Shown here: one piece after another, positions 14,600 through 33,034 of the stretch
Layout of the letters: each line of letters begins with the position of its first letter
Numbering within the stretch: the first letter of the stretch is position 1
Assembly: GCA_963995525.1 (NCBI GenBank)
Contig: OZ023213.1
Coordinates: 22,408,278-22,472,277, forward strand
Direction: 5' to 3'
Origin: Escarpia spicata
Taxonomy: Eukaryota > Annelida > Polychaeta > Sabellida > Siboglinidae
DNA length: 64,000 bases
Notes under the pieces: model-generated
What the model was told of the DNA's origin: nothing
The model's database searches: none
Seen by the model: the letters and a program-made list of their open reading frames with translations, nothing else
Program-made: the position numbers and the translations under genes

Positions 14600-15430
14600 A
14601 GCTCAGTGCTAAAAAGGAACTTGTAACTATGGGTATTTACATTCAGGTACACAGACAACGGCACGGATACTACAGTACGTCATATCGACGAGTTTTGCTT
14701 GCTATAGACGTTATATACCTTTGCTTGTTTGATATAATTATAAACATCACCGTTAGTATTTAGTTGATGTCGCACTGTGTTGATGAAACCTGGGAACGTG
14801 GTTTTGATAAAAGTGTTTAACAGCAGAATAGTAGAGCTATTGTTGTACCTTCTGCATATAGGAGCCAAAAGGTGATAGCGATCCAGTTCTCCCATATATG
14901 GTAGTTATCGTGTCCACCATAAATAGTTTACGGAGTGCCTTCCATGGGTTTCAGTTAGTTCCGTGGTGACGTTTACCAAAGCTTACCGTACCACTATTTC
15001 AGCCAGCCAGAAGATGCTGCCACTGTACGCCGCTATGAGAACTACATGTGTGGAGCGAACGTTACGTTAGCTGTGTTCAAAGTGAGAGCCGCTCTTCCCT
15101 TGCACACAAGTAGTAGTACCGTACGTTTGGAACCTCATCCTACTGTGAAAGTGCGCCTCCATGGACCAAATCTCATAGTGGAAAGAAGAATAAATAGTGG
15201 CGCCACCTGGCGGCTGCAGAGGGGTGAATTAGCGTGTTACGACCTTTGGTGGTGGAGGCGGGGGTTAGAGATGTGTGTGTGTGTGCGTGTGTATAAATGC
15301 GCGTGTATGAAAGACCTAACGAAACACAAGAGTATACGAGTGCACACGAATTTTATTGACGAAAGATACAAGCATACATATGACACGAAACCGTGTTTTA
15401 TTAAGCGAAGACAAGTGGACGACGCATGCC
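14600..15430. other. Left flank of the Polinton, no gene recognised
   Basis: Short ORFs without recognisable domains. The left terminus of the Polinton should lie here or just below 15,630, but I cannot identify an inverted repeat partner at the right side. Confidence 0.4.
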
Positions 15431-15434
15431 TTGT

Positions 15435-15561
15435 GGGTGAGCGAACACCGCGACAGAGGTCGTGAGCTTAGGGGTCAAGACGACCACGCTAGTGGCTCGT
15501 AGGATGGTAGTACGACTTACGGGTGAGCGAACACAGCGGCAGAGGCCGTGAGCTTACGGGT
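15435..15561. repeat. 41-bp direct repeats next to the Polinton protease end
   Basis: gggtgagcgaacac.gcg.cagagg.cgtgagctta.gggt occurs at 15,435-15,475 and 15,521-15,561, with a partly related unit starting at 15,558. It lies between the protease 3' end and the left flank, where subterminal repeats of a Polinton would be expected. Confidence 0.7.
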
Positions 15562-15630
15562 GTGTGACCACCGCGCCATAGGCTCGAAACATGATGATGA
15601 TGATGATACCTGTTCGTTAATGAAACACGG

Positions 15631-16077
15631 TTATAGCAGTTGTTTAAGCCAATCAAATAAACGGCAGTCGTTTGCTACCAGATCAGTGCCGAAACCATTG
15701 ACGAATTCCTTCATGGGAAGTCCACGACAGCGAAACAAGAGATAAGCAACACAGTATTGTCCGCAAACGTTAGACGTCTGCAGTCTGTTAGAATTATGAG
15801 TCCACGTTACACAATGTTTATTCAATAATCGACGGAACTCGACGTGCCGTGGCGCTCAGCCGTAAGAACAGAAGTATTCACCGTGACCGTTGGCGTCTAT
15901 GTAGAGTGCTATTCAATGTTCGCCGGGTTTACCCGCGTCGTGCGTGTTGCACACGAAGGCGACGGGGTAAGCGTCTATCTGGAGAGCGAGGAGTACGTCT
16001 TTGGGTACGATCCCACGGATGATGGGACGGGCGTGCCAATCGAGGGTGAGTAGGCGGACGAGCTGCAGGGTTTCCAA
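15631..16077 (-). pseudogene. PRO: Adenain-like cysteine protease (PRO) of the Polinton, broken
   Basis: The frame from 16,077 to 15,631 (148 codons) reads TLQLVRLLTLDWHARPIIRG, DAYPVAFVCNTHDAGKPGEH, YIDANGHGEYFCSYG, then LQTSNVCGQYCVAYLLFRC and ends FDWLKQLL. In adenovirus-type maturation proteases the catalytic His lies in the GxHW motif, an acidic residue in the following E/DYF.DS.G strand, and Gln and Cys in the Q...CG.YC block. His, Gln and Cys can be seen; the acidic position reads Cys. Two TGA codons interrupt the frame, one directly after GEH and one after YFCSYG, and the expected start codon is not ATG. The enzyme would process capsid and core proteins during assembly. Confidence 0.85.
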
Positions 16078-17387
16078 CAGTAGTCGTAGATGACGTTGCG
16101 ACTCTTGTCGATCTCCAGCACGGTCTCGAACTCGGCGTAGGCGATGACGTTCACAGTGGTCGTCAGCGCGTCGCGGAAATGAATCTCGATGCGCAGGTTG
16201 CCCTTTTGTACCAGATGGAAGCAGCAGTCGTCGCATGCATCGGGGATGCGGTCCAAGCCGAAGAAGGTGTAGTCGTGTCGGAAGTCGGCGCGAGACAAAC
16301 CGTTGCCTTCGTTCTGCCACACCTTACCCGTCGAGGTGAACAGGTTGTGGTAGCACCTGACAAAGAGGTCGTCGTTGAAGTTGGGCTGGAAAGGTTTGGA
16401 GGGTATCTGTCGTCCGTCGACGTACACGGCGAGGAAGTTGATGTGGTTGTTTTTTGCGTGAAAGGGATTTCTGGCGTACCTTCCGTTGTAGGCGTCGTTA
16501 TCGATGCAGCACAGCACGAGACGTTTCGGAAGAGCGCCAAGAACGAGATTATCGTGCGTGTGCGAGCGGGTACCTGTGGGAATTGAGTAGACCTTGCAGG
16601 CGACGGGTCGCATCGGATACTTGGCGGTGGTTTTTTCGAGGGCTTTGATGTGAGCCATCTGCACGCCCGGATTCAGGGTGGCCTTCTTGACGAACAGTGT
16701 AGCGCTGACGATCTTTATCTTGTAGCGGGGTTGGCGCCGCCGGCCATGAGCGCGAACGAATCCTTGCTGCGTACCAGACGTATCTTGACCTCGACGCCGT
16801 TGATGAGGAATTTATCCTGTAGGAACAGGTCCATGTGGAGAGGACCCATCATGTCGACCACGCGACTCTGTGCAATCATGTTGCGTTTGGTGACGAACCA
16901 CGCGTTGGCTGCATCGCCGGCATCTAATTCGACGTCTTCCATACGATTGGCCGTGTCCTTGTGCCACATCTGACTCGTCCGTTGCGTCCCATTGGCATCG
17001 TCGCCGTAACTGAGTAGCGTCTCTATGTAGGCGCGGTACGGGTACTTGTTGGTCGAGGGAGTCACGAGCGTTCCGTTCAGGTAGACATCGACCTGACTGA
17101 ACAGCGAATGGAGCCAGTTATTCACGGGACCGACGGGATCGTTGGCGGCGTGGTCGGCTCCGTCGCGTCACCTTCGCCTGAACGTGTAGCATCGTGCTGG
17201 CGAGATCCAGGTAATCGTCTCCCGATCCGGCTATGACGAATTCGATCGGTCCGCCCGAGTCGAGCGAGGACATCGGTTGGTGTTGTACCGTGTGACTATC
17301 GATGATGCTGGTCTGAGTCGGAGGCACGGCGAAGAGATCGAGCTCGCTCTTGAGGCCCTCACACGGTAGTTTATGAATGAACGCCAT
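16077..17387 (-). pseudogene. MCP: Polinton major capsid protein (double jelly roll), frameshifted
   Basis: The start at 17,387 (MAFIHKLPCEG) is chosen because SELDLFAVPPTQTSI follows at the spacing seen in Polinton capsid proteins (the F54H12.2-like family). Next come GGPIEFVIAGSGDDYLDL, NNWLHSLFSQVDVYLNG, RTSQMWHKDTAN, KFLINGVEVKIRL, FHAKNNHINFLAVYVDGRQI, YTFFGLDRIPDACDD, and near the end FETVLEIDKSRNVIYDY. About 435 residues, normal for the family. One frameshift lies near 17,160 and another near 16,715, the latter in a C run. The usual stop is lost at 16,077-16,079, so the frame runs on to 15,975. It would form the trimeric hexon-like capsomers. Confidence 0.9.
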
Positions 17388-17788
17388 CCTCGAATAAATC
17401 GGACTCACGACGTGTCGTCGGCCTCTGCTTCCTCTTGCGTCTCGCAGCTGTACTGACTCGTTTCGTAGCGGGTGCGCGTCTTATACGCTTACGCGGTTGC
17501 ACGCCAGGGGGTCAAGAGGTCGCTCATCATGTCTCTACCGGCAGCGGTGATGCTAAGTTTGGCGGCCGTTCTGATGTTCTGACCCGACAGGACGTCGTCG
17601 GTTATGCGTGCGCCGGTCGACACCGCTCTCCTTCCCAACGCCACGGCACCTCTCTTGACGAGCGGCATGACGCTACGCAGTAGACCACCGAATAGATTTC
17701 CTAGTCCATGTCCTCGTTGGTATCGGGCACCCGCGAAATAGGGAAGCGCACCGCCCGCTTGACGAGTGTAGTAGTAGTTGTAATTCAT
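17371..17788 (-). pseudogene. PX-like basic virion protein of the Polinton
   Basis: Starts MNYNYYYTRQAGGALPYFAG and continues YQRGHGLGNLFGGLLRSVMP, LVKRGAVALGRRAVSTGA, the usual opening of the PX-like (adenovirus pX/pVI-related) protein of Polintons and adintoviruses. After LLTPW a frameshift in a run of five C near 17,500 breaks the frame. The second frame supplies an Arg/Lys-rich tail (RKRIRRAPATKR, ARRKRKQRP) ending at 17,371, so it overlaps the MCP start by 17 nt. The Gly-rich N-terminus followed by a basic tail suggests a DNA- or membrane-active core protein. Role inferred from relatives. Confidence 0.8.
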
Positions 17789-17792
17789 CCCT

Positions 17793-18595
17793 CTAGAACA
17801 GGGCCGTCCGTCGCCGTTGGAAATGAAGTGTCACCGTCAACTTGCCGACCTCGAAAGGCACGCGTCGTCCGGTGTCGTCTCTTATATCTATCTCAATCGT
17901 GCCAAACTCTTTGTAGAGCACGGGTACGTTGTAAGTCTTGTCAAAGGTCTTCGACACGATGTCGCCATGGCTACCGCTCAGCGGGACGATGCGCAGCAGT
18001 GGTACGAGGCTGTCACCGTCAACTCGCGGTTCCACGACATCCGTGTAGACGTAGAGCGATTCCAGCCCTGGTTCCATGTTGACTACGGTGTCGGCTTCCG
18101 TGGTATATACCTCGGGAGGCGTGGGATCCTTCGGGAGAGCCGACAGTGTATTGACACGAAAGCCGAGAACGGTGGTCAGCATAGCGCCGCGGAAGACGGT
18201 ATTCGGTAGCATGTACACCGTTATCTTATGCGTGATGGTACTGTAGCTCAGTTTCACCCGTCCCTCCCCCGCAACGCGACGTAGAGCGGCGTTAATGGCG
18301 AGGATTAGTGACCACGGATCTTTATAGTGTCCGGTCCCGATTCTGATATTCTTCGTGTGCATGGGCCACATGTTCCCCCCTCCTCTTCCACAGGTAGCGT
18401 TACAGCGAACCCCGCGTCGTCGTCTACGACTTTGTACCAACTGTGCGGGTACTGTATCTCCACCAGTCCACATTCACATCGCCCCGGTAGTAGGATACGT
18501 TGCGGTAGCGTCGTGACGTAGTGGATCAGCGTGTTATCGGGGTGCGTGCGCATAGAAGCATTGCTAGGCAACGTGACATAAAAATCACTCGTCAT
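17793..18595 (-). pseudogene. Polinton penton / minor capsid protein (single jelly roll), frameshifted
   Basis: The first frame (18,595-18,305) reads MTSDFYVTLPSNASMRTHPD, TLIHYVTTLPQRILLPG and VEIQYPHSWYKV. After a frameshift in a six-G run near 18,375 the second frame (to 17,793) gives NIRIGTGHYKDPWSLILAIN, VYTDVVEPRVDGDSLVPLLR, VPLSGSHGDIVSKTF, YKEFGTIEIDIRDDTG and VGKLTVTLHF. The VYTD..EP..VGD...PLLR and GK..VTLHF blocks are characteristic of Polinton minor capsid proteins, which form pentons at the vertices. The ATG overlaps the 3' end of the upstream membrane-protein gene by 11 nt. Only the frameshift is visible as damage. Confidence 0.88.
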
Positions 18596-18887
18596 GTTGT
18601 TTCAACGTCGGGCTGGGTAGCAGGTAACCCAACGAACTGCTCAACAGGGCCGTCCACAGAGTCGGATTCGCGTGGTATCCGAATGACAGATTGTAGATAC
18701 TGACCAAGATGACCGTGTACAAGACGACGACCTGACACAGAAACACGATCTCCTCTTTGGGACACGCGGTACCGAATATGTGCCACGGAGGCCTCTCTTT
18801 CTGTGGCGGCGCGTCGATTTCGTCGTCGTCGTCGTCGTCGTCTTCCTCGGTGCTAACGGTGACCTGTGATGTCGTCTCACCCGTCAT
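18585..18887 (-). CDS. Conserved Polinton acidic membrane protein (100 aa, intact frame)
   Basis: MTGETTSQVTVSTEE followed by a run of seven Asp (DNA cgt/tcg repeats at 18,820-18,842), then CPKEEIVFLCQVVVLYTVILVS and SIYNLSFG, LWTALLSSSLGYLLPSP. The two hydrophobic stretches predict two membrane helices. A protein with IVF.CQV.LIY...V.IYNL...LW..LLSS.LGYLLP.P sits just upstream of the penton gene in many Polintons; its function is not known. The frame is intact and ends inside the penton start. The acidic run is probably an expanded codon repeat. Confidence 0.75.
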   Translation of the reverse strand: MTGETTSQVTVSTEEDDDDDDDEIDAPPQKERPPWHIFGTACPKEEIVFLCQVVVLYTVILVSIYNLSFGYHANPTLWTALLSSSLGYLLPSPTLKQHDE

Positions 18888-18920
18888 GGGTGGGCGAATG
18901 AAATCATGTCGGACGCGTGA

Positions 18921-20010
18921 CTAGTCTTTATAGCCGACGAGGGCTTTGACATCGATCCAGCTGTTGAATTTCAAAGGGTATCCGAACCATTTAACCAACT
19001 CCTCCCGTCGCCTGCCCACCATGGGTCGCTGCAATATCGATTCCACACGGTACAGTTTATCGGTCGGAACCGTCACCTTCTGCAACTCCGGTTCGTAGAA
19101 GGTACCGTCCAGTGTTTCACCGAGATCGTCCGTCAGGCGATAGACGGGCGGATCGGCTGGATGGACCTCGTGTATGGTGAATATTTCCTCGGACCAATTC
19201 GCCGTGTACCCTTTATCGAAGCGTCGCTTGACCCTGCTGATACGCACGCGATCCGCCACGATCCATACTTGGGCACACCCTTACCGTGCTGACTACCGTA
19301 CAGGCGCTGCCACACCTCTTCCTGATTCAACGCGTTCACTTGCGACGGAGCCATACTGATGCTGCGGTAAGGGGTGTCGTTGTACGAGCGTACCAGGTCC
19401 TGAAGGATATCCATGTATTGCCACGTCTCGTGTTTCGACAGGTATCGCCACATGCGCGTCTTAAACGTACGATTAAAACGTTCCACGATGCTCGCCTTGG
19501 TCTCCTCGTTGTAGATGGAGAAGTGTTGGATACCGTACTTGTCCCATACACCCCGAACGCCACGGTTCAGGTATTCCAGACCTCTATCGGTCTGCAACGT
19601 CAGCGGACGATCGTCGTTATCGATGAACAGTCCGTCCAGCGCCCTCGTCATCGACGTCGCCGACTTGGTCTTCAGCGGAACGCATCGGGCGACTTTCGAG
19701 CAGACGTCGATCACGGTGAGTAGGAACGTCGTACTGTCGTTGTCTCGTTTCAGACTGGACACGTCGACGAGATCGGCCTGCTACTGTTGATTCCGACCGC
19801 CGACGACCACGCGCCGCCGCCGGAAACGAACTCTCACCGGTTTGTGTAGGGTATAGGCGTTCTGTTCCGATAGCCATTGTTCGACGACCTTTCTCGGTAC
19901 ACGCTGTATGGGTCGGAAGGCGACGCGGCGCAACGACTTGATTCCCACGTAACTTCCCACCTTGGCGGGTGGTGATCATGTTGTACGGATGATATAATCG
20001 ATGGTAATCC
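18921..20010 (-). pseudogene. INT: Polinton RVE integrase with chromodomain-like C-terminus
   Basis: The N-terminal part (19,950-19,785) reads LRRVAFRPIQRVPRKVVEQW and LSEQNAYTLHKPVR. TAG at 19,781-19,783 interrupts it. The core (to about 19,265) has ADLVDVSSLKRDNDSTTFLL, TVIDVCSKVARCVPL, LTLQTDRGLEYLNRGV and SIVERFNRTFKTRMWRYL, so the catalytic D-D-E residues (ADLVD/VIDV, TDRG, E of VERFNR) are visible. After a frameshift near 19,265 come MADRVRISRVKRRFDKGY, WSEEIFTIHEVHP and a chromodomain-like end, LYRVESILQRP, ELVKWFGYPLKFNSWID. It catalyses strand transfer with 6-bp target duplications. This copy is inactive. Confidence 0.9.
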
Positions 20011-20019
20011 CGCACACGA

Positions 20020-20240
20020 TGTGAAGTCCGGCGTAAGCGACAGCGCTAAACAGATGACGTGTTAGACTGTCCCGTGGATCGCACATTATGCTGTCGATTC
20101 GGGACGATGCGCCTCCTTTATTAAAGACGCTCCCATGTCTTGCTGTCCGACGGAGGGGAGGTAGGGCGGCGGACGGGCTCATTCGTTCCCGCCGCCGTCG
20201 CACGAGGGGTGTCCACTGCGCTCTACCGAGCGATCGTGTG
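20020..20240. other. Spacer between integrase and the split Polinton gene
   Basis: GC-rich stretch between the last recognisable residues of the MALVDPRLL protein (about 20,250) and the integrase start. It may hold the degenerate 3' end of the former. No independent gene recognised. Confidence 0.4.
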
Positions 20241-20653
20241 GCCGCTGCCGCCACGGCACTCTTCCTTTGCCCATCCTGTTGAATGTGGAGTCTCCTGGCC
20301 TCGTTGCCCACCAACTCCAAGGGTCAGATTCATGTCGCCGAGTTGGCGCGCAAACACCTGCCATCCCGTCGGATCATCGAAAGTCTTGCGCTGGCGCAAC
20401 AGATCGTTCACGAGGTCCACTACGTTACTTCCGGGTACCGCTACTCCTTTGTGCACTTCACGCGACATCTCGTTTCAGACGTTCCATCAATCGTCTGGCT
20501 TTGGCCTACAGCGCCTTGGGAACGCTGTCGACGACTTCCGCTTCTATACCTCCCGCCGCCGCCGTGGTCACTGGGGACGTATCTTTGTTCACCGTCATCA
20601 AGCGCACCGGTTCGCGCGGGCGTCGATCGGCCAACGCGTTGTAGCGTTGCAAC
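20240..20653 (-). pseudogene. Conserved Polinton protein, C-terminal part, cut off by the insertion
   Basis: Directly left of the insertion the minus strand reads VLQRYNALADRRPREPVRL, then EAEVVDSVPKAL, a TAG, AKARRLMERLKRDVA. In a second frame come HKGVAVPGSNVVDLVNDLLR, QRKTFDDPTGWQVFARQLGD, and in a third ELVGNEARRLHIQQ. This is the C-terminal part of a conserved Polinton protein whose N-terminus (MALVDPRLL) sits at 29.9-30.07 kb. Relatives show the VPGSN..DLVND.LR.RK...P.GW..F...L and ELVGN blocks in the same order. Function unknown. One nonsense codon and two frameshifts add to the insertion. The exact end is uncertain. Confidence 0.75.
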
Positions 20654-20659
20654 ACTTAA
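20654..20659. other. Left target-site duplication (ACTTAA)
   Basis: ACTTAA here and ACTTGA at 29,920-29,925 match at five of six bases. Reading the gene through with one copy joins the two coding halves in frame. Six bases is the Polinton target length. Confidence 0.65.
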
Positions 20660-20722
20660 AGTAGTAATAGGCGTGGTGTACCGCCCAGGGTTGTCGCGCC
20701 CCGGAGGAAACCCCATGTTAAG
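20660..20722 (+). repeat. Left 63-bp terminal inverted repeat of the foldback
   Basis: Begins AGTAGTAATAGGCGTGG and ends CCCCATGTTAAG. It is identical base for base to the reverse complement of 29,857-29,919. Beyond it the left side continues into sequence absent from the right arm. Confidence 0.9.
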
Positions 20723-20735
20723 AGATAGGGATTTT

Positions 20736-20864
20736 CCCCCAAGACGCTCCAAACCCTTTCGCGCCAATTATGCAAATGAGGTCTTTGGAGCGTCTCGGGG
20801 GAAGTGCAATTGACCAATCACGAGCGAGCTGGGCATTGTGGGCGTGGTTAGTTATGCAAATGAG
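20736..20864. promoter_or_regulatory. Hairpin-flanked octamer / CCAAT cluster (promoter-like)
   Basis: Two copies of ttatgcaaatgag (20,768-20,780 and 20,852-20,864) contain the POU octamer ATGCAAAT. Between them lie gaccaatca (CCAAT box) and gggcgtgg (Sp1/KLF-like). The first octamer sits in the loop of an inverted repeat, agacgctccaaa at 20,742-20,753 and tttggagcgtct at 20,784-20,795, extended by C and G runs. This resembles histone or snRNA upstream control regions. Only present in the left arm. Activity is inferred. Confidence 0.4.
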
Positions 20865-20884
20865 CTTGGAAAAGTAGTTCCGAC

Positions 20885-21125
20885 CCCGGGTTAAAGTATA
20901 GGGAATTTTATCGCAAAGGTATCCGACCACTTTTCGAATTTTAACCCCATGTTAAAGCATAGGGATTTTTATCGCAAAGGTATCCGACCACTTTTCGAAT
21001 TTTAATCCCACGTTAAAGCATAGGACATTTTTATCGCAAAGGTATTTGACCACTTTTCGAATTTTTATCCTGGGTTAAAGCATAGGCCATTTTTATCGCA
21101 AAAGTACGCGACCACTTTTTTGAAT
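20885..21125. repeat. 61-62-bp tandem repeat, four copies
   Basis: The unit gttaaagcatagg, then tttttatcgcaaaggtat and gaccacttttcgaattttaa, repeats four times with increasing divergence. The gttaaagcatagg phrase also resembles the end of the 63-bp TIR (ccccatgttaag) and sequences at 21,725 and 21,962, which may have guided the deletion in the right arm. Confidence 0.88.
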
Positions 21126-21129
21126 AAAA

Positions 21130-21923
21130 TAACATACCGAACAGCATTTGAATATGCTACACACGAGACTGCTTGGCCCGGAGGCCGAGGCTCGCCAAGG
21201 GTCCGACCCGTTATTTGTTTGACTATGACACGTCGAAAATGTGGTGTTATAATAAGGCGTAATGTATAACAAAAGGATTATAAATTCAGCGGAGACCGTT
21301 TTGTCTGAAGTAATGTATACGAAATGTACATTACATATAGGACTATGTTATATCAGAGCCTATAGCCTCGTTTTTCGAACAGAGTGACCATTTTGGAATT
21401 AGCCCTTTGGTGTCTGTTACAAAAACCCGTACTCGAGACGTGTCTGGACACGTTTGTTTGTCGCAAGCACGCGCACCCTGTATGACGTCATGGTACGCGC
21501 TGTAATTTTGTACACGAAGTGAGTTGTTCAAGCAGATAGTGCTTTGGTTAGACCTTGTATTGAACTTGCGCGTATGTAATGTAATCCCTTCATGTGACGT
21601 CAACTAAATAAGTAATTGCGCATGCGCAATAGTGGTTATTCTTATATGTCGTAGGTTGTCGACCCTTTGATTAGGTGTAGGACACTCCTTTTAATATTTA
21701 CAACTTTAATATAGGTCCAAACCCGATAAAGCATAGCCATAGGCATAGGCATAGTCATAGAGGCTAAAGGCTATCTGACCTACAGCGCATAACCACGGAA
21801 AAACAACTTACAAACACTGACAAACAACTTTCAAACACTGATATTCAACTCAAAAACACTGACATACTATAGCGAGTGAAAAATTTCCCTGTTAACCGAT
21901 ATAAACTGATATTAAACAAGCCT
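21130..21923. other. Left-arm-only segment, no gene recognised
   Basis: Not matched in the right arm. Contains a cataggcataggcatag run near 21,735 and three aaaacactgac repeats near 21,800-21,865. Short ORFs show no domain. Confidence 0.5.
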
Positions 21924-22532
21924 CAAGGTTCTGTGTTGAAAAAACATCCGTGTATTTGTCCCGTGTTAAGGCATTGCCATAGGGGATTATACGAACTTAT
22001 CTGCTAAAACATTCAAACTACCAGCTATCTGTGTAATATTTTGGTCAAACTGGTTGTCATGTAACAGTATTCGTGATACGAAATTTGTACTTACCGAACT
22101 TTTTGAAGTTATTATAGCAGTTGATAGCCTGTACACAAACTGGTGTCAAACTGTTTTGAAGAGATATTCCTTGTTCGAGCCTCATCTACATGTATGTCTC
22201 ATCTGTGCCTAGAGACCAACAATACCGTTTCAGCATTTTATCACGCTGGTGTTCTTAACCTATATGTGTGTACGTATGTACGTATGTACGTATGTGTATA
22301 GTTGCGTTCAACATTACTATTAAATAAATAAACACGCTATGTGCGATGGACAATGGCGATTCGATCGTCTTGATATCAAAGATCATACAGCAATAAAAGA
22401 CGGCGCAGTGCTCGCTATCTATACTGTTCGAGGAAAGTGAAGCGTCATGATAGTGAAGCGTTATGTTAGAACAGTACAGACACACAATAACCTCCCAGAT
22501 AAGATGTACCAGTATTTATATAGTTTACCGTA

Positions 22533-22805
22533 TTAAGGGCCAAGTGTACAAATGTCCATTAGAACGTTTTTATCTTTTTTCGGTCTATAGTATTTAAATT
22601 CGTGCTTCTTCGTTAAAACCTGCCAAATTAGCTTCGGTCGTAAAACAAATAACCTGGCACGGGTAACCGAAAATGAACTCATAGATACATACACGTGGTA
22701 CGAAACACACAACACGCACATGAACTCAGACCAACTAGACGGTGAAAGACTGTTTGAGTGTTTTGTTAGACGCAGGTGTGAAGCTATCCGGCCTAGATAT
22801 GTCAC
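22533..22805 (-). CDS. 90-aa ORF of unknown function, left-arm copy
   Basis: MTYLGRIASHLRLTKHSNSL... with a nearly identical copy in the right arm (28,992-29,264, plus strand; Leu to Ile at one position). No recognised domain. Inverted-repeat homology alone would preserve it, so conservation between arms is weak evidence for coding. The only arguable ORF in the single-copy part of the arms. Confidence 0.15.
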   Translation of the reverse strand: MTYLGRIASHLRLTKHSNSLSPSSWSEFMCVLCVSYHVYVSMSSFSVTRARLFVLRPKLIWQVLTKKHEFKYYRPKKDKNVLMDICTLGP

Positions 22806-22831
22806 GAGACTACGGATGGGACATCAGAATA

Positions 22832-23535
22832 GACGTGTTATTGCGTCAAAGCCCTCCTTTTTTCAGGAAAATAGACGTGTTATCGCGTCAGTTCCTTTCC
22901 TTTTCAGGAAAATAGACGGGTTATCGCGTCAATTCCTTTCCTTTTCAGGAAATTAGACGTGTTATCGCGTGAGATTTGCTTCAAAACGAAGCAACGCAAA
23001 GCAAATAGCCGTGTTATCGCGTGAGATTTGCTTCAAAACGAAGCAACGCAAAGCAAATAGCCGTGTTATCGCGTGAGATTTGCTTCAAAACGAAGCAACG
23101 CAAAGCAAATAACCGTGTTATCGCGTGAGATTTGCTTCAAAACGAAGCAACGCAAAGCAAATAGCCGTGTTATCGCGTGAGATTTGCTTCAAAACGAAGC
23201 AACGCAAAGCAAATAGCCGTGTTATCGCATGAGATTTGCTTCAAAACGAAGCAACGCAAAGCAAATAGCCGTGTTATCGCATCAATTCCTTTCCTTTTCA
23301 GGAAAATAGACGTGTTATCGCATCAATTCCCTTCCTTTTCAGGAAAATAGACGTGTTATCGCGTGAGATCCCACCGTTTTCAGGAAAATAGACGTGTTAT
23401 TGCGTCAAATCTCTCCGTTTTCAGGAAAATAGACGTGTTATCGCGTCAAATCCCTCCGTTTTCAGGAAAATAGACGTGTTATCACGTGACATCTCACCGC
23501 TTTCAGGCAATTCGACGAGTTATCGCGTGACATCT
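22832..23535. repeat. Array of a GTGTTATCGCG motif with hairpins (left arm, outer block)
   Basis: The phrase atagacgtgttatcgcgt recurs every 34-60 bases. In six consecutive units it is linked to a perfect hairpin, TTGCTTC-aaaac-GAAGCAA, followed by cgcaaagcaaat. In others it is linked to tttccttttcaggaaa. More copies follow at 24,125-24,385 and 24,680-24,770. Regular spacing and strong core conservation against variable spacers suggest protein-binding sites or replication iterons. Confidence 0.85.
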
Positions 23536-23539
23536 CTAC

Positions 23540-24122
23540 CAAACACGAGACAAGAGACGAGACTATGACCGAGATGTATCACGAGACTTCGGATGACACG
23601 AGACAAGAGACGAGACTATGACCGAGATGTGTCACGAGACTTCGGATGACACGAGACAAGAGACGAGACTATGACCGAGATGTGTCACGAGACTTCGGAT
23701 GACACGAGACAAGAGACGAGACTATGGCCGAGACGTGTCACGAGACTTCGGATGACACATCACACGAGAGTACCGACGAGACAAGAGATGCCGCGAGACT
23801 ACGAATGACACATCACACGAGACTATGACCGAGATGTGTCACGAGACTTCGGATGACACGAGACAAGAGACGAGACTATGACCGAGATGTGTCATGAGAC
23901 TTCGGATGACACGAGACAAGAGACGAGACTATGACCGAGATATGTCACGAGACTTCGGATGACACGAGACAAGAGACGAGACTATGACCGAGATGTGTCA
24001 CGAGACTTCGGATGACACGAGACAAGAGACGAGACTATGACCGAGATGTGTCACGAGATTTCGGATGACACGAGACAAGAGACGAGACTATGACCGAGAT
24101 GTGTCACGAGACTTCGGATGAC
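23540..24122. repeat. 53-bp tandem repeat (left arm)
   Basis: Unit cacgagacttcggatgacac, gagacaagagacgagactat, gaccgagatgtgt. About ten copies, with one rearranged block near 23,745-23,825 that also exists in the right arm, so the array was already rearranged before the arms were copied. Confidence 0.92.
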
Positions 24123-24397
24123 GCAAAGCAAATAGACGTGTTATCGCGTGAGATTTGCTTCAAAACGAAGCAACGCAAAGCAAATAGACGTGTTATAGCG
24201 TGAGATTTGCTTAAAAACGAAGCAACGCAAAGCACATATACGTGTTATCGCGTGAGATTTGCTTCAAAACGAAGCAACGCAAAGCAATAGACGTGTTATC
24301 GCACCCCATCTCCTCCGTTTTCAGGAAAATAGACGTGTTATCGCGTCAAATCCCTTCTTTTTAAAGGAAAATAGACGTTATTGCGTGGGATTTGCTT

Positions 24398-24600
24398 CAA
24401 CACTCACTCACTCACTCACTCACTCACTCACCCTTTGTATATGTTCACTCACTCACTCACTCACCCTTCGTATCTGTTCACTCACTTACTCACTCACCCT
24501 TCGTGTCTGTTCACTCACTCACTCACTCACTCACTCACTCACTCACTCACTCACTCACTCACTCACCCTTCGTGTCTGTTCACTCACTCACGCACTCAGG
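24398..24600. repeat. (CACT)n arrays with cacccttcgt interruptions (left arm)
   Basis: CACT/TCAC runs separated by cacccttcgtgtctgttcac. The right arm has the same structure with longer runs (27,118-27,425). The Thr/His/Ser/Leu-rich ORFs are artefacts. Confidence 0.95.
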
Positions 24601-24774
24601 CCGTCCCTTCGTCGTTTTCTAACATTTTTTCTTTTCAGTATGTTACCGTGGTAACATTTTCGTAACTTTCTGACATTTCGACGGGTTATCGCGTGACATC
24701 TCACCTCTTTCTGACAACTCGACGGGTTATCGCGTTCAGCTCACCTCTTTCTGGCAATTCGACGTGTTATCGAA

Positions 24775-25507
24775 ACACTAAACTTAGCCGAACACGTGAC
24801 ACGAATTGAACACAGACCGACAAGTCGGGTAAACGAAACATTATAGTTTGACCAACACGCCGAACGAATTGAACTATAGACACGAGTTGTACAAACGAAA
24901 CACTAAACTTAGCCGAACACGTGACACGAATTGAACACAGACAGACAAGTCGGACAAACGAAACACTATAGTTTGACCAACACGCCGAACGAATCGAACT
25001 ATAGCCACGAGTTGTACAAACGAAACACTAACCTTAGCCAAACACGTGACACGAATTGAACACAGACCGACAAGTCGGACAAACGAAACACTATAGTTTG
25101 ACCAACATGCCGAACGAATCGAACTATAGACACGAGTTGTAAAACGAAACACTAAACTTAACCGAACACGTGACACGAATTGAACACAGACCGACAAGTC
25201 GGGTAAACGAAACACTATAGTTTGACCAACACGCTGAACGAATCGAACTATAGACACGAGTTGTACAAACGAAACACTAAACAGCCGAACACGTGACACG
25301 AATTGAACACAGACCGACAAGTTGGACAAACGAAACACTATAGTTTGACCAACACGCCGAACGAATTGAACTATAGACACGAGTTGTACAAACGAAACAC
25401 TAAACTTAACCGAACACGTGACACGAATTGAACACAGACCGACAAGTCGGACAAACGAAACACTATAGTTTGACAAACACGCCGAACGAATCGAACTATA
25501 GACACGA
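24775..25507. repeat. 125-bp tandem repeat, six copies (left arm)
   Basis: Each unit has two related halves, gccgaacacgtgacacgaat and gaccaacacgccgaacgaa, separated by cgaaacacta. The right arm has about eight copies (25,960-26,950). The 200-aa ORF across it is the repeat read in one frame. Confidence 0.92.
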
Positions 25508-25552
25508 GGTGACCATCACGAATCCCGACGCCACTCAACGGACACCAGTGTA

Positions 25553-25917
25553 ATTAGTCAGAGTATTGCCATCTACCGACCATGATATTCGTTGACACAC
25601 TTCCGTGAATATCGGAAGCGTAGAGTCCGCCATGACAGTCAAGTAACTTCCGGTGCGACGTCACTTCCGACGTAGCGTTCCTAGTAGAGGTCGCCATGAC
25701 AGTCAAGTAACTTCCGGTACGACGTCACTTCCTGCGCAGCGCCCCCTAATGGATAATCGGAGTACTATGTCACACGATGGCGCCATCTAGCGGGTAAAAA
25801 TATCTAATTAGGTTAGCTAGAGAAAAAAAAGTTGGGGTTAACCTCGCGAAAATTTATACAACCACCAAAGTGGTTATATAAATTATAGTCGCGAGGTTAA
25901 TCCCAACTTTTTTTTTT
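25553..25917. other. Central loop of the foldback
   Basis: The only single-copy DNA between the arms. It contains a 40-bp direct repeat (gccatgacagtcaagtaact..cggacgtcacttcc type) at about 25,630 and 25,692, each with cttccgg (ETS-like) and acgtca (CRE-half) motifs, a ggcgccatctagcggg phrase, and a 95-bp hairpin next to the right arm. No ORF of note. Confidence 0.8.
25823..25917. repeat. 95-bp hairpin in the centre of the foldback
   Basis: aaaaaaaagttgggg, ttaacctcgcga, atttata, accac face gtggt, tataaat, tcgcgaggttaa, cccaactttttttt in reverse order, with a short aaa-type loop. Arms of about 45 bp with few mismatches. It ends exactly where the right arm begins. Could be a small MITE or the structure that seeded the inverted duplication. 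Confidence 0.8.
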
Positions 25918-28900
25918 CTGGTGTCCGTTGAGTGGCGTCGGGAATCATGATGGTCACCTCGTGTCTATAGTTCGATTCGTTCGGCGTGTTGGTCAAACTA
26001 TAGTGATTCCTTTACCCGACTAGTCGGTCTGAGTTCAGTTCGTGTCACGTGTTCGGCTAAGTTTAGTGTTTCGTTTGTACAACTCGTGTCTATAGTTCGA
26101 TTCGTTCGGCGTGTTGGTCAAACTATAGTGTTTCGTTTGTCCGACTAGACGGTCTGTGTTCAATTCGTGTCACGTGTTCGGCTAAGTTTAGTGTTTCGTT
26201 TGTACAACTCGTGTCTATAGTTCGATTCGTTCGGCGTGTTGGTCAAACTATAGTGTTTCGTTTGTCCGACTAGTCGGCCTGTGTTCAATTCGTGTCACGT
26301 GTTCGGCTAAGTTTAGTGTTTCGTTTGTACAACTCGTGTCTATAGTGCGATTCGTTCGGCGTGTTGGTCAAACTGTAGTGTTTCGTTTGTCCGACTAGTC
26401 GGCCTGTGTTCAATTCGTGTCACGTGTTCGGCTAAGTTTAGTGTTTCGTTTGTACAACTCGTGTCTATAGTTCGATTCGTTCGGCGTGTTGGTCAAACTA
26501 TAGTGTTTCGTTTGTCCGACTAGTAGGTCTGTGTTCAATTCGTGTCACGTGTTCGGCTAAGTTTAGTGTTTCGTTTGTACAACTCGTGTCTATAGTTCGA
26601 TTCGTTCGACGTGTTGGTCAAACTATAGTGTTTCGTTTGTCCGACTTGTCGGTCTGTGTTCAATTCGTGTCACGTGTTCGGCTAAGGTTAGTGTTTCGTT
26701 TGAACAACCCGTGGCTATAGTTCGATTCGTTCGGCGTGTTGGTCAAACTATAATGTTTCGTTTGTCCGACTTGTCGGTCTGTGTTCAATTCGTATCACGT
26801 GTTCGGCTAAGTTTAGTGTTTCGTTTGTACAACTCGTGTCTATAGTTCGATTCGTTCGGCGTGTTGGTCAAACTATAGTGTTTCGTTTACCCGACTTGTC
26901 GGTCTGTGTTCAATTCGTGTCACGTGTTCGGCTAAGTTTAGTGTTTCGATAACACGTCGAATTGTCAGAAAGAGGTGAGCTGAACGCGATAACCCGTCGA
27001 ATTGTCAGAAAGAGGTGAGATGTCACGCGATAACCCGTCGAATTGTCAGAAAATTACGAAAATTTTACCACGGTAACATGCTGAAAAGATAAAATGTTAG
27101 AAAACGACGAAGGGACGGCGTGAGTGAGTGAGTGAACAGACACGAAGGGTGAGCGAGTGAGTGAGTGAGTGAGTGAGTGAGTGAGTGAGTGAGTGAGTGA
27201 ACAGACACGAAGGGTGAGTGAGTGAGTGAGTGAGTGAGTGAGTGAGTGAGTGAGTGAGTGAGTGAGTGAGTGAGTGAGTGAGTGAGTGAACAGATACGAA
27301 GGGTGAGTGAGTGAGTGAGTGAGTGAGTGAGTGAGTGAGTGAGTGAGTGAGTGAGTGAGTGAGTGAGTGAGTGAGTGAGTGAGTGAGTGAGTGAGTGAGT
27401 GATTGAGTGAGTGAGTGAGTGAGTGTTGAAGCAAACCCCACGCGATAACACGTCTATTTTCCTGAAAATGGAGGGATTTGACGCGATAACACGTCTATTT
27501 TCCTGAAAACGGAGGAGATGGGGTGCGATAACACGTCTATTTGCTTTGCGTTGCTTCGTTTTGAAGCAAATCTCACGCGATAACACGTCTATTTGCTTTG
27601 CGTTGCTTCGTTTTGAAGCAAATCTCACGCTATAACACGTCTATTTGCTTTGCGTTGCTTCGTTTTGAAGCAAATCTCACGCGATAACACGTCTATTTGC
27701 TTTGCGTTGCTTCGTTTTGAAGCAAATCTCAAGCGATAACACGTCTATTTGCTTTGCGTTGCTTCGTTTTGAAGCAAATCTCAAGCGATAACACGTCGAA
27801 CCGTACTCTCGTGTGATGTGTCATCTGTAGTCTCGTCACATATCTCGGTCATAGTCTCGTCTCTTGTCTCGTGTCATCCGAAGTCTCGTGACACATCTCG
27901 GTCATAGTCTCGTCTCTTGTCTCGTGTCATCCGAAATCTCATGACACATCTCGGTCATAGTCTCGTCTCTTGTCTCGTGTCATCCGAAGTCTCGTGACAC
28001 ATCTCGGTCATAGTCTCGTCTCTTGTCTCGTGTCATCCGAAGTCTCGTGACATATCTCGGTCATAGTCTCGTCTCTTGTCTCGTGTCATCCGAAGTCTCG
28101 TGACACATCTCGGTCATAGTCTCGTCTCTTGTCTCGTGTCATCTGAAGTCTCGTGACACATCTCGGTCATAGTCTCGTGTGATGTGTCATCCGTAGTCTC
28201 GCGGCATCTCTTGTCTCGTCGGTACTCTCGTGTGATGTGTCATCCGAAGTCTCGTGACACGTCTCGGTCATAATATCGTCTCTTGTCTCGTGTCATCCGA
28301 AGTCTCGTGACACATTTCGGTCATAGTCTCGTCTCTTGTCTCGTGTCATCCGAAGTCTCGTGATACATCTCGGTCATAGTCTCGTCTCTTGTCTCGTGTT
28401 TGGTAGAGATGTCACGCGATAACTCGTCGAATTGCCTGAAAGCGGTGAGATGTCACGTGATAACACGTCTATTTTCCTGAAAACGGAGGGATTTGACGCG
28501 ATAACACGTCTATTTTCCTGAAAACGGAGGGATTTGACGCAATAACACGTCTATTTTCCTGAAAAGGAAAGGAATTGATGCGAAAACACGTCTATTTTCC
28601 TGAAAAGGAAAGGAATTGATGCGATAACACGGCTATTTGCTTTGCGTTGCTTCGTTTTGAAGCAAATCTCACGCGATAACACGGCTATTTGCTTTGCGTT
28701 GCTTCGTTTTGAAGCAAATCTCACGCGATAACACGGCTATTTGCTTTGCGTTGCTTCGTTTTGAAGCAAATCTCACGCGATAACACGGCTATTTGCTTTG
28801 CGTTGCTTCGTTTTGAAGCAAATCTCACGCGATAACACGTCTATTTTCCTGAAAAAGAAAGGAATTGACGCGATAACCCGTCTATTTTCCTGAAAAGGAA

Positions 28901-29856
28901 AGGAATTGGCGCGATAACACGTCTATTTTCCTGAAAAAAAGAGGGCTTTGACGCAATAACACGTCTATTCTGATGTCCCATCCGTACTCTCGTGACATAT
29001 CTAGGCCGGATAGCTTCACACCTGCGTATAACAAAACACTCAAACAGTCTTTCACCGTCTAGTTGGTCTGAGTTCATGTGCGTGTTGTGTGTTTCGTACC
29101 ACGTGTATGTATCTATGAGTTCATTTTCGGTTACCCGTGCCAGGTTATTTGTTTTACGACCGAAGCTAATTTGGCAGGTTTTAACGAAGAAGCACGAATT
29201 TAAATACTATAGACCGAAAAAAGATAAAAACGTTCTAATGGACATTTGTACACTTGGCCCTTAAAACGGTAAACTATATAAATACTGGTACATCTTATCT
29301 GGGAGGTTATTGTGTGTCTGTACTGTTCTAACATAACGCTTCACTATCATGACGCTTCACTTTCCTCGAACAATATAGATAGCGATCACTGCGCCGTCTT
29401 TTATTGCTATATGATCTTTGATATCAAGACGATCGAATCGCCATTGTGCACATAGCGTGTTTATTTATTTCATAATAATGTTGAACGCAATTATACGCAT
29501 ACGTACATACGTACACACATATAGGTTAAGAACACCAGCGTGATAAAATGCTGAAACGGTATTTTTGATCTCTAGGCACAGATGAGACATACATGTAGAT
29601 GAGCCTCGAACAAGGAATATCTCTTCAAAACAGTTTGACACCAGTTTGTCTACAGGCTATCAACTGCTATAATAACTTCAAAAAGTTCGGTAAGTACAAA
29701 TTTCGTATCACGAATACTGTTACATGACAACCAGTTTGACCAAAATATTACACAGATAGCTGGTAGTTTGAATGTTTTAGCAGATAAGTTCGTATAATCC
29801 CCTATGGCAATGCCTTAACACGGGACAAATACACGGATGTTTTTTCAACACAGAAC
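25918..29856 (-). repeat. Right foldback arm
   Basis: Inverted counterpart of 21,924-25,552, beginning ctggtgtccgttg. It contains the 125-bp array (25,960-26,950), the GTGA array (27,118-27,425), the hairpin/GTGTTATCGCG blocks (27,440-27,800 and 28,410-28,975), the 53-bp array (27,805-28,405) and the single-copy outer part. It lacks the 1.2-kb left-only segment next to the terminal repeat. Confidence 0.9.
28992..29264 (+). CDS. 90-aa ORF of unknown function, right-arm copy
   Basis: Mirror copy of the ORF at 22,533-22,805. See that entry; no domain recognised and coding status doubtful. Confidence 0.15.
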   Translation: MTYLGRIASHLRITKHSNSLSPSSWSEFMCVLCVSYHVYVSMSSFSVTRARLFVLRPKLIWQVLTKKHEFKYYRPKKDKNVLMDICTLGP

Positions 29857-29919
29857 CTTAACATGGGGTTTCCTCCGGGGCGCGACAACCCTGGGCGGTA
29901 CACCACGCCTATTACTACT
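29857..29919 (-). repeat. Right 63-bp terminal inverted repeat of the foldback
   Basis: Ends cctattactact, the exact inverse of the left terminus. Inward it joins aaggttctgtgttg directly, which in the left arm lies 1.2 kb further in. Confidence 0.9.
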
Positions 29920-29925
29920 ACTTGA
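29920..29925. other. Right target-site duplication (ACTTGA)
   Basis: Partner of ACTTAA at 20,654-20,659. It also encodes part of the coding sequence of the interrupted gene (minus-strand codons for Asn-Gln-Val around tcaagt). Confidence 0.65.
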
Positions 29926-30068
29926 TTATACATGACGACCTTGTCGCCGTCGGTGAGATCGTCGTCGAGGACCTGCACCTTGCGTCCTAGGGTATCCGTC
30001 GGTGGTGGTGCGCGTAGACTGTCCAACAGTCGTGGATCTACCAAGGCCATCTTTCGTGCGTGTTTCAT
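29920..30068 (-). pseudogene. Conserved Polinton protein, N-terminal part (MALVDPRLL), split by the insertion
   Basis: MKHARKMALVDPRLLDSL, then DTLGRKVQVLDDDLTDGDK and VVMYNQ, where the foldback starts. The MALVDPRLL opening and the D..DKV.+YNQ block are shared by many Polinton copies, with the C-terminal half found here at 20.24-20.65 kb. The true start could be the internal ATG at about 30,050, since MALVDPRLL is the usual beginning. It lies 6 nt after the 118-aa gene, so the two were probably co-transcribed. Function unknown. Confidence 0.8.
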
Positions 30069-30074
30069 CGTCGT

Positions 30075-30431
30075 CTACTTGAGTAGCACCTCTTTGAGCA
30101 AGGGTAGAAAGACCGCACCGGCCAACGGTGCTAGCAGAGCCGACAGGAAACCGCCGGTCTGTCTCGCGCCGACCTGGTTACCCTGTAGCAAGGTGCGACA
30201 TCTCCTCGCCGCCGGCACGCCTCTCCGTGCCAAGGAGCGCAGGTTCGCTTGGTACCTACTCAAATGGCGTCTCTGTGCGTCGGTCAAGGGAATGTTCTCC
30301 TTCAATATGTTGTAGGCACACTCGGCTAATGCGCACAATAGATCGGCGTCGGCGTTTCGGATGATGGCTCGTCTCAATTTCGTGATCTTGTACCTGTTCA
30401 GCGCCTGTATGCAGAGGAGGTGTCTCTTCAC
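30075..30431 (-). CDS. Conserved 118-aa Polinton protein with hydrophobic C-terminus
   Basis: Starts MKRHLLCIQALNRY and contains LLCALAECAYNILKENIPLT, QRRHLSRYQANLRSLARRG and ends with a Gly/Leu-rich segment GGFLSALLAPLAGAVFLP followed by LLKEVLLK. The order ALxECAxNvLkgnvpLt..Q+..L++++..LR.La and a terminal GGFL..LL.P segment is recurrent in Polinton genomes directly downstream of the ATPase. The C-terminal hydrophobic part could be a membrane-active or capsid-lining peptide. The role is not established. The frame is intact, one of two Polinton genes here without a visible break. Confidence 0.7.
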   Translation of the reverse strand: MKRHLLCIQALNRYKITKLRRAIIRNADADLLCALAECAYNILKENIPLTDAQRRHLSRYQANLRSLARRGVPAARRCRTLLQGNQVGARQTGGFLSALLAPLAGAVFLPLLKEVLLK

Positions 30432-30467
30432 GCGCTCGGAAATGCTGTATGTCTCTTAACGGGCGTC

Positions 30468-31088
30468 TTATTCCTTGGGTTGGTACACGTACTGGACGCC
30501 GTCGTCCGGAAGGACGCCCGTGCGCAGACGCATGTCGTCGGGCGTGTCCTGTTTCAGATCGATGAGGAGGTAGCCGTACAGCGGCGACGTGGCGTCTTTG
30601 AACGCGGCCTGTACAAACTTCAGGCGTCCCGGATACATCTGTCGCGCCAAGTGACCTATCTGTGACGCGTTGAGAGGATTCTCGAAGACCACCATGTATT
30701 GTGCGTTCAGACTGATCGTCCGACTCTCCTTGTTTTTCGGAAACAGGTTCTGCACGAGATAAAGTACGGACGTGTTCTGGTGACTCTTTTTTGTGAACAA
30801 GTTCGTGACCCGTTCGTCCGTTTACGCCATCAGATTGTCGATGACCACGAGGTTACGCGTAGTCGCGTCGAACGCGCCACTCGGCAAGCCTTCCTCGAAG
30901 CGTACCAGGTCGTTGTCGACGGCGGCGTAGGCGCTCTGCCATTCTCCGTAACACCACGTGATCTACTCGGGAGGCGGAGCGATCATCGTTGCGGCGTAAC
31001 GTAGCATGCGCGTCACGAACGTACTCTTACCGCACCCCATCGGTCCCGCATTCATACAGGTGAAGGGATGTTTCCATCGCGTGTCCAT
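30468..31088 (-). pseudogene. Polinton FtsK/HerA-type genome packaging ATPase, two nonsense codons
   Basis: From ATG at 31,086-31,088 a single frame of 206 codons reads MDTRWKHPFTCMNAGPMGCG with the Walker A GPMGCGKST, then PPPE, a TAG at codon 42 (30,963-30,965), TWCYGEWQSAY, the Walker B strand NLVVIDNLM, a TAA at codon 89 (30,822-30,824), TDERVTNLFTKKSH, SVLYLVQNLFP (sensor-like Gln), ISLNAQYMVVFENPL, IGHLARQMYPG and YLLIDLKQDTP. This matches the A32/FtsK-type packaging ATPase of Polintons, which pumps DNA into the capsid. There is no frameshift, so the two stops are point changes in an otherwise preserved gene. Confidence 0.9.
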
Positions 31089-31265
31089 CTAGTAGCTGGT
31101 GGTTCTGTTCGACAATGTCGCGTTGTCCACTGTGACGTTAGATACGACGACGATACCACCACCACACCACGAGAAAGAACGAAGGAAAGGAACGTAACAC
31201 CACAAGACGTACACTCCGACTGTTCCTACTAGTGCTACTCCTACGACTGCTCGCGTCCGTGACAT
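31089..31265 (-). CDS. Small membrane protein upstream of the ATPase (58 aa)
   Basis: MSRTRAVVGVALVGTVGVYV begins with a short basic stretch then a hydrophobic helix, followed by a second hydrophobic patch (GGGIVVVS) and Asn-rich NVTVDNATLSNRTT with possible N-glycosylation sites. Its TAG is directly followed by the ATPase ATG. The tight junction suggests a real gene in the block. I do not recognise the family. Confidence 0.4.
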   Translation of the reverse strand: MSRTRAVVGVALVGTVGVYVLWCYVPFLRSFSWCGGGIVVVSNVTVDNATLSNRTTSY

Positions 31266-31430
31266 GATGCACTATGACTATCGATTGCGTGACAGCTGTC
31301 TAAATAGTGTAATCTTTTTTGTGTCTACTTTCTGCCTACTAAACGCGTGACAGCTAGAGGCGCCTATAACCCCAACTGACGTAGGGGCGCATTTCCTCGT
31401 TGTGTCAGCAGTGGTTCAGCATATCGTACG

Positions 31431-31630
31431 TTACACGTCCACCGGACGCGTGGTGACTCCGTCCTCGTGGACCACGCGTTTGGCGTAGAAGTAGGTCAGC
31501 GCCGCACGTTCCTGGATGTACGTCAGCACGGACGAGTTATTTACCCGGAATCCTTTCCGCTTCCGCTCCCACGATTGGTCAGCACGTCCAAGAACGCCTG
31601 CTTGTCGATTGTGTTGATTCGTTTGTTCAT
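31431..31630 (-). pseudogene. Unrecognised Polinton-edge remnant
   Basis: MNKRINTIDKQAFLDVLTN in one frame, stopped at a TAA near 31,540, then VNNSSVLTYIQERAALTYFY and AKRVVHEDGVTTRPVDV in the next frame. GC content and style match the Polinton block. It may be the end of a larger gene lost at the right boundary. No family recognised. Confidence 0.35.
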
Positions 31631-32429
31631 CTTTTAATCAAACTACATCAGAGACAAAAGCAAGATGTGCAAGAGTAAAAACGTTGCTTTGCCTATAACT
31701 GTCACCCGTTGGTTGTACATTAATTTTATTTAATGTGTTGACATTAGTTATTGCACAAATCATGTATTATATAAATATGAACTTTATGGATATATATTAT
31801 CAAGTAGTGTAATGTATAAGTATATTGTTAAGTTGCATGTACAGCTGTATCACTAAACCATGATAATAAACCTTGTAGAGAGTGTATCATCTATACATAA
31901 AGGAGATCAATCAACAAAACTAAAGAGGTGTAACAGAGAAAGACATGTCTCACCACGCTCGGTCCATACGAAGGGATCGTTCGCCGTGCCACTGCAATGT
32001 CTAGCGAGTCAAAAATCGGGTGGTGTTCTGAGACACCCCGTAGATATAGTGATGTTATTAGGAATACGCTGAATTTTTAATACAAACGTAGTCAGATAAG
32101 TGGAGAAGATGATCACATAGAAAACAAATGTACTAGAATTATAAATATCAACCTTATGAGAAATCTCGCTTAATTATTACTAACTCCTAAATATGTGAAG
32201 TGATCGCATATCCTATGTTGCATGGGTTCAGTTGGTGTATTATTATTATATAGGCAACTATGCACGTACCGCAGGAAAACGACATTGTTAGCATTTGGAA
32301 CATTACAAATAATTATGTATATCCATGAACTACAACAGACTGTGACCCCCCTTCTCCGTAACAAATGGCTTTGTTTACAGACACAAGCCGTCAAACGAGC
32401 TATTCACGAAGAATCGGTAACACACCGGC

Positions 32430-32528
32430 CTGGGCAATCGATTCATTTCTGCGCGTGTCTGCGTGATGCGTGTCTGTGCGTGCATGTACGTGCCTGTGTA
32501 AGCCTGTCCGTGCGTGTGTACATGTTTT
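32430..32528. repeat. GTGCGTG-type low-complexity tract
   Basis: Imperfect gtgtctgcgtg/gtgcgtgcatg repeats inside copy 1 of the dispersed repeat. No coding meaning. Confidence 0.6.
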
Positions 32529-33034
32529 GCTGTAAAAAGTTTACTTAAAACTGGCACTTAAGATTAAAACGGCAGAGGGAATGTTTCTTTCTTTAAAAAA
32601 ACGTGTTAATGGTGCTTTCAAATGTCTCCGTGACAGAAGTTTGTGAAATGCTGCGTTAACAGGATCGTTGAGGTTGGCCTCGATACTGAGCATTTTGAAA
32701 AGGTTCTTAAATGTAACAAGAATTCCGTTTAGTGATGGATTTCTCCGATGAGTTCTTTACCGTAGTGAAACAGTCCCTGGTGCCATGGACAGTTGTTCTC
32801 TCTGTTGCAGCCTGCGCCGGGGGTTGTGACAATCCAGGAACAACAACACAAGCAGGACGCCCAGACCGAGAGGATCCTGAAGATGATAGGGAGGCAGCTC
32901 ACCATCCCACTGATGGGTGAGATACAGGCCCTTAGCCAGAAATAATTGTTTGCCAGTCGTGAATTAATAAAAATTATGGGGAGGAGATTAGACATTCCAG
33001 CAGTGTTCAGATAACATATACTACGAGAACTGCG

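Follow-up and report, generated by a model that had tools for sequence, protein, structure and literature searches.

Vertebrate Mavericks, also called Polintons, most commonly end in 5'-(AGT)2//(ACT)2-3' and are flanked by 6-bp target duplications, and their repeated end motif has been tied to jumping back during protein-primed replication (PMC8097293). Foldback elements such as Tetris and Galileo of Drosophila instead have long inverted arms that contain tandem repeats. Tetris, which lacks a transposase, produces duplications of 8-10 bp, has been assigned to Mutator and has supplied building blocks of satellite DNA, whereas Galileo has been assigned to P elements (PMC4079207). In Helicoverpa, a few gene-less miniature inverted-repeat transposable elements of 50-800 bp, low in copy number and with 6-bp duplications, were listed under Maverick, the available parts of that paper mentioning neither an end motif nor empty sites (PMC9033116). 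Here we analyze a 64,000-nucleotide stretch of the annelid Escarpia spicata (OZ023213.1, positions 22,408,278 to 22,472,277; hereafter the window), in which a 9,260-bp foldback element is inserted into a Polinton. Like Polintons, this insert has (AGT)2//(ACT)2 ends, a 6-bp duplication and long terminal inverted repeats (TIRs), but it has no recognizable polymerase, integrase, ATPase or capsid gene, and its interior is a satellite-filled palindrome. In duplication length and end motif it fits a non-autonomous member of the Polinton/Maverick group, although its TIR resembles the Polinton ends read over about 12-15 terminal bp only, and it has no recognizable genes of an autonomous member. It resembles Tetris and Galileo in its arms, and it differs from the Helicoverpa elements, gene-less and with 6-bp duplications as well, in being a multi-kilobase foldback of a multi-copy family. 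The insert belongs to a family of non-autonomous foldbacks with Polinton-type ends and no recognizable transposase, and it was very probably inserted by a Polinton integrase with a 6-bp stagger.

A Polinton-type foldback is not described in the available parts of PMC2836005, PMC6431247, PMC8504770, PMC6004678, PMC6035795 or PMC12910113. We likewise found no description of a non-autonomous Polinton or a Polinton-type foldback in what was available of the open full-text literature, a body separate from subscription journals and from Repbase. Repbase may hold short non-autonomous Polinton entries.

The insert is bounded by two 63-bp TIRs that agree letter for letter, as a first-pass annotation of the window had reported together with the length; a perfect inverted pair of this size is expected about 2e-29 times per 64 kb at equal base frequencies. 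The junctions read ACTTAA, then AGTAGTAATAGG ... CCTATTACTACT, then ACTTGA. The AG start noted in that annotation is correct, although the motif is actually longer, AGTAGT. This hexamer is not itself rare in the window (35 occurrences on both strands versus 32 expected), and its weight lies in its exact position at the ends of elements. Between the TIRs, two long inverted, satellite-built arms flank a short center, and the insert, made up mostly of such arms with internal tandem repeats, belongs to the foldback structural class. Two non-tandem segments are 98.6% and 98.9% identical from arm to arm. The right arm lacks 1.2 kb that are present in the left (20723-21924), with AAG at both break points; since the 62-bp subterminal unit is matched in 27 of 30 foldback end loci, in some of them beside the TIR only, the right arm appears to have undergone a deletion. 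Ten open reading frames (ORFs) of the insert gave no Pfam match above the curated cut-off, in agreement with the earlier remark that no transposase is visible. A search of Rfam at gathering scores gave no match.

The claim that the insert lies inside a Polinton is borne out by its flanks, which are 78-83% identical at the DNA level to two uninterrupted homologous Polintons, L001 (QGON01000029.1) and L002 (QGON01000010.1). Both contigs are filed in a bacterial bin of an Escarpia laminata endosymbiont, where, carrying Polintons like those of the window's genome, they most likely represent host contamination; L001 is 89%, 95% and 98% identical to pieces of a Polinton copy on C3 of the window's genome. 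To the left of the insert, an rve domain above the Pfam cut-off and a Chromo domain just below it lie on the minus strand (18921-19780), and the best relatives of this integrase are in the same two contigs (77-78% identity). To the right, ORF 30468-30821 matches L001 4850-5200 (tblastn), within an L001 ORF that has an Adeno_IVa2 match. Viral contigs held no relatives of the integrase or of the ATPase piece. L001 itself codes for DNA_pol_B_2 (2.9e-9), an Adeno_IVa2-like ATPase (9.5e-5) and rve plus Chromo; its match to the adenovirus protease is weak and below the Pfam cut-off, and a search of the PDB with one of its ORFs gave no match.

Both homologs carry the empty site, GTTGCAAC-ACTTGA-TTATACAT. 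Given the single ACTTGA in L001 and L002, the ACTTAA and ACTTGA of the window therefore come from one ACTTGA, the right copy being intact and the left carrying one substitution. The match at only five of six positions had been the weak point of the 6-bp duplication as originally put forward, and the two empty sites remove it.

The family to which the insert belongs has multiple copies. Searches of the window's genome (1.06 Gb) gave 40 matches with the 63-bp TIR (40 of 99 first-look candidates scored) and 41 with 169 bp (40 of 724 scored); these candidate numbers are not copy numbers, and they provide no complete census of foldbacks or Polintons. Foldback ends start with AGTAGT in 27 of 30 cases and with TGTAGT in the other 3, and those read afterwards include one GGTAGT and one AGTAGA. 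Long inverted arms related to the insert were found at 12 of 20 further fetched loci, several others holding a single end, and long stretches of other fetched copies align to its arms and satellites. Ten ORFs from five other copies gave no Pfam match above the curated cut-off. The arms are palindromic in 7 of 18 foldback pairs (window, L033, L034, L037, L041, L046 and L052), the C12 12.5M pair has inverted 1.4-kb ends, and the remaining pairs are known from their ends alone. The exact 19-base TIR pattern was absent from viral contigs, and the TIR from the Escarpia bin (4.3 Mb, bacterial, with few animal contigs). There was no sign of a preference for Polintons as targets: with L001 and the window's Polinton as the only targets compared and the two flanks of the window copy left out, one of 28 outer flanks (L028) matched L001, at 57% over 126 aa.

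If these foldbacks were moved by a Polinton integrase, their duplications should be 6 bp long. A 6-bp duplication is present in 15 of the 18 pairs, perfect in 11 and matching at five of six positions in 4, and no other length fits the 18 pairs jointly; a match of at least five in six is expected by chance in 0.46% of pairs at equal base frequencies. The first set gave such a duplication in 7 of 10 pairs (ACTTAA/ACTTGA in the window, CGCGTG, TGCAGC, CACGTA/CATGTA, TACATG, TACGTG/TATGTG and TTGTAC). The second set, taken afterwards as a check, comprised all 8 new pairs visible in the 169-bp search and gave it in all 8, with seven perfect and one at five of six; one of the perfect cases is a tandem-repeat target, in C13, which for that reason also matches at 10/10 over 10 bp. 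The count excludes L035 and L036, which are nested and show inverted flanks at their inner ends, as well as loci with a single end fetched. The first-pass annotation had called for other copies to be examined in this way and had named 8- or 9-bp duplications, or ends of hAT, Mutator-like element (MULE) or P type, as contrary outcomes; the common length proved to be 6 bp, and none of those outcomes was seen among the pairs read. A 4-bp duplication with a 2-base filler in the window copy was also considered and rejected, there being no 4-bp signal in the pooled pairs or in the second set.

The Polintons of the same genome, whose ends the annotation had suggested comparing, leave the same signature. 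L001 and the C3 copy are homologous as far as AGTAGTGAATAAGGA, the terminus of L001, and their flanks differ beyond it. A search with this end (40 of 139 candidates scored) defined a first Polinton TIR family, in which 8 of 10 visible pairs were read: all eight have AGTAGT//ACTACT, with perfect 6-bp duplications in seven and a match of five in six in one. A second family, reached via ends about 4.3 kb downstream of integrases (40 of 1,055 candidates scored), has AGTAGT//ACTACT and perfect duplications in all five pairs read out of nine visible, one left end carrying a third AGT. Together, the two families show the same end motif and 6-bp duplications in 13 of 13 pairs, 12 of them perfect. In a genome search for integrases (150 of 2,573 candidates scored), matches fell by coordinates inside three of the eight first-family pairs read (C1 27.5M, C14 20.5M and C4 30.3M) and inside one unread pair of that family (C1 69.0M). 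Polinton sequence was read inside a further pair, C3 60.75M, and none of the 150 scored integrases lies in the five second-family pairs. A family search for DNA_pol_B_2 gave one match (91 of 246 candidates scored). The similarity also continues beyond the hexamer: most foldback ends shown go on with an ATAGG-like sequence (AATAGG, AATATAGG; in C2, ATAGTATG), and Polinton ends with ATATAGG, GTATAGG, GAATAGG or GAATAAGG. The two Polinton-TIR pairs closest to the foldback, C10 46.7M and C1 57.6M, read GTATAGGCG and are known from their ends alone.

Several arrangements among these Polintons were also observed. L050/L053 (C3:60743171-60763000) is a Polinton copy inside a second, diverged Polinton, with an end pair 25.9 kb apart, and the copy carries a tandemly repeated zinc-finger gene unit of about 3.7 kb. 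In L071 (C1:1567800-1568700), of which a single side was seen, a second-family Polinton end abuts a foldback-like end whose TIR matches are weak (22 bp at 82% and 20 bp at 90%); this is perhaps a Polinton inserted in a foldback. Nesting takes the form of a foldback within a Polinton in the window and of a Polinton end against a foldback-like end in L071.

Since the foldbacks share both the end signature and the 6-base footprint of the genome's Polintons, they most likely travel by borrowing Polinton machinery. One of the many genomic Polintons would supply a retroviral-type integrase that recognizes AGTAGT-(N)-ATAGG-like ends and, acting in trans, makes a 6-bp staggered cut and inserts the foldback. 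Mobilization in trans by such an integrase is strongly supported by comparison of the sequences. The first-pass annotation had already proposed it, and the matching ends and duplications support it; the enzymatic step we infer, and the candidates scored (150 of 2,573 integrases and 40 in each TIR search) included no Polinton that carries the foldback TIR in full.

Less certainly, but plausibly, the protein-primed polymerase of Polintons would also copy the foldbacks. We infer this from the repeated end triplet, a published jumping-back signal, and from the ends within a copy being mostly more alike than ends of different copies: in 8 of 10 foldbacks the two ends are 93.5-100% identical, against 86-93.5% for the best other end (over the aligned part of 1.4 kb, and over 135 bp only for the window copy). 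An extra triplet at one foldback end and at one Polinton end is only suggestive of such copying. Linear viruses with protein-primed replication are known to have snap-back defective genomes. By comparison with these, the foldbacks could be imagined as satellite replicons of Polintons, in which the polymerase would start at the AGT doublets and copy through a panhandle that keeps the arms alike and creates palindromes, the integrase would insert the product, and Polinton particles might carry it; we consider this extended scheme tentative and on balance unlikely.

A number of observations weigh against these proposals. Three of the 18 foldback pairs lack a duplication that directly adjoins both ends. 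L034 and L041 show none; in L052 each flank contains CACGGA, but the left copy is separated from AGTAGT by three extra bases, CGT, which give this pair a match of 6/9 over 9 bp. The foldback TIR resembles the Polinton ends read over its first 12-15 bp or so only, and the missing Polinton with a full foldback TIR counts here too. The insert has no homology to Polinton sequence, as compared with L001, L002, part of L050 and three ends of 335-419 bp. Nine of the 13 Polinton-TIR pairs come without gene evidence, among them the foldback-like C10 46.7M and C1 57.6M, and the only listed integrases within 25 kb of listed foldback TIRs are those of the window's interrupted Polinton and of the C2 42.6-kb pair (the TIR and integrase lists being compared by eye). 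As to copying, the ends of C2 and C4, two of the ten copies compared, are not each other's best match, and homogenization of arms by recombination would give the same within-copy similarity in any foldback.

Candidates for an autonomous element were sought among long pairs, the interiors of the C4 24-kb and C13 15.5-kb pairs lying outside what was read. L050 was rejected as a Polinton with foldback TIRs, a long interspersed element (LINE) separating the TIR fragment from a diverged Polinton at distances that do not fit. The C12 19-kb pair was rejected, the 7.7-kb piece read holding a non-LTR (long terminal repeat) retrotransposon, as was the C2 42.6-kb pair, whose integrase is that of a Polinton having an end of its own there. 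In L034 and L041, the two ends are 99% and 95% identical and the flanks unmatched, perhaps because copies recombined or one flank was lost.

Where the foldbacks came from is a separate question. Non-autonomous elements usually derive from autonomous ones, and the foldbacks may have arisen by degeneration of one Polinton family, its full-length copies having died out or escaped sampling, and not from unrelated DNA that took up Polinton ends. Such descent is favored by ends that are fully of Polinton type and by the conserved 63-bp TIR; the failure to find Polinton homology inside the insert, in the limited comparison above, and the alignment of other foldbacks at length to its arms and satellites speak against it, leaving the possibility evenly balanced. 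It is compatible with mobilization by a Polinton integrase, as it concerns origin only.

Duplications of 6 bp in hAT elements and of 6-7 bp in Dada elements are known, and a transposase of such a lineage, or of IS3EU/GingerRoot, could have moved the foldbacks if their AGTAGT ends were coincidental. IS3EU and GingerRoot do make 6-bp duplications, but the termini of IS3EU, and mostly those of GingerRoot, are TA..TA (PMC10045372), and on the AGTAGT..ACTACT of the foldbacks these two groups were rejected. AGTAGT is, moreover, the published Maverick motif (PMC8097293) and stands at both ends of every Polinton-TIR pair read, whereas chance would place it at a given end in about one case in 4,096. 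With the ATAGG-like continuation common to foldbacks and Polintons, we regard another transposase as improbable, even though no autonomous Polinton with the full TIR emerged from the scored candidates. A foldback of Mutator or P type, moved by a MULE or P transposase, is more improbable still. Known foldbacks are said to be mostly Mutator, satellite-bearing inverted arms also occur in Tetris (PMC4079207) and Galileo, and a Mutator-like transposase fragment lies 6.8 kb from the insert (13498-13854). Duplications in the IS256/MuDR group range from 4 to 10 bp (PMC10045372), so that a length of 6 bp alone is not decisive; however, Tetris makes 8-10 bp (PMC4079207) where only 6 bp fits our pairs jointly, and the AGTAGT ends match Polintons, and it was on duplications and ends together that this explanation was rejected. 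Finally, palindromes and satellites are prone to misassembly, but that the structure arose in assembly, or by inverted duplication of host DNA, is hardly credible when the same TIRs recur at many loci on separate contigs, mostly with their own 6-bp duplication, and homologous empty sites exist.

Borrowing of Polinton machinery would connect the self-synthesizing Polintons with foldbacks, a class normally assigned to Mutator or P transposons, and suggests that gene-less parasites can persist as a family with the help of a virus-like integrase. The family may offer a handle on end recognition by Polinton integrases, on replication in trans and on the spread of satellite DNA by mobile elements.

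Table 1. Coordinates of the foldback insert and of the Polinton that it interrupts, in window positions.
Feature	Position	Strand	Details
Host Polinton, left piece	15277..20659	-	78% DNA identity to L001; integrase 19133-19780, chromodomain 18921-19280
Left target-duplication copy ACTTAA	20654..20659	.	Read from sequence; one substitution relative to ACTTGA of the empty sites
Left 63-bp TIR, start AGTAGTAATAGG	20660..20722	+	Letter-identical to right TIR
Left-arm segment without right-arm counterpart	20723..21924	+	From arm comparison; 62-bp subterminal repeats 20890-21119 from tandem-repeat analysis
Left long inverted arm	21925..25508	+	41-, 52-, 53- and 125-bp satellites, (CACT)n
Foldback center with smaller hairpin	25509..25960	.	
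Right long inverted arm	25961..29859	-	Reversed copies of left-arm satellites; last 3 bases overlap right TIR
Right 63-bp TIR, end ACTACT	29857..29919	-	Letter-identical to left TIR
Right target-duplication copy ACTTGA	29920..29925	.	As in the empty sites of L001 and L002
Host Polinton, right piece (packaging-ATPase region)	29920..31629	-	DNA identity 78% to L001, 83% to L002

The window contains other repeats and mobile elements. The Mutator-like fragment (PF20700, 2e-8, minus strand) is outside the insert, and a 30-bp minisatellite of about 37 copies occupies 8976-10089. Direct repeats at 31765-35193 and 52553-55348, 90-92% identical in pieces and covering an integrase fragment, may be copies of the same retroelement or reflect a segmental duplication. 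A 432-bp palindrome (98%) at 35961-36392, with related pieces at 41516-41660 and 60157-60340, has ends other than AGTAGT, and a non-LTR retrotransposon with endonuclease and reverse transcriptase domains lies on the plus strand at 57456-59948.

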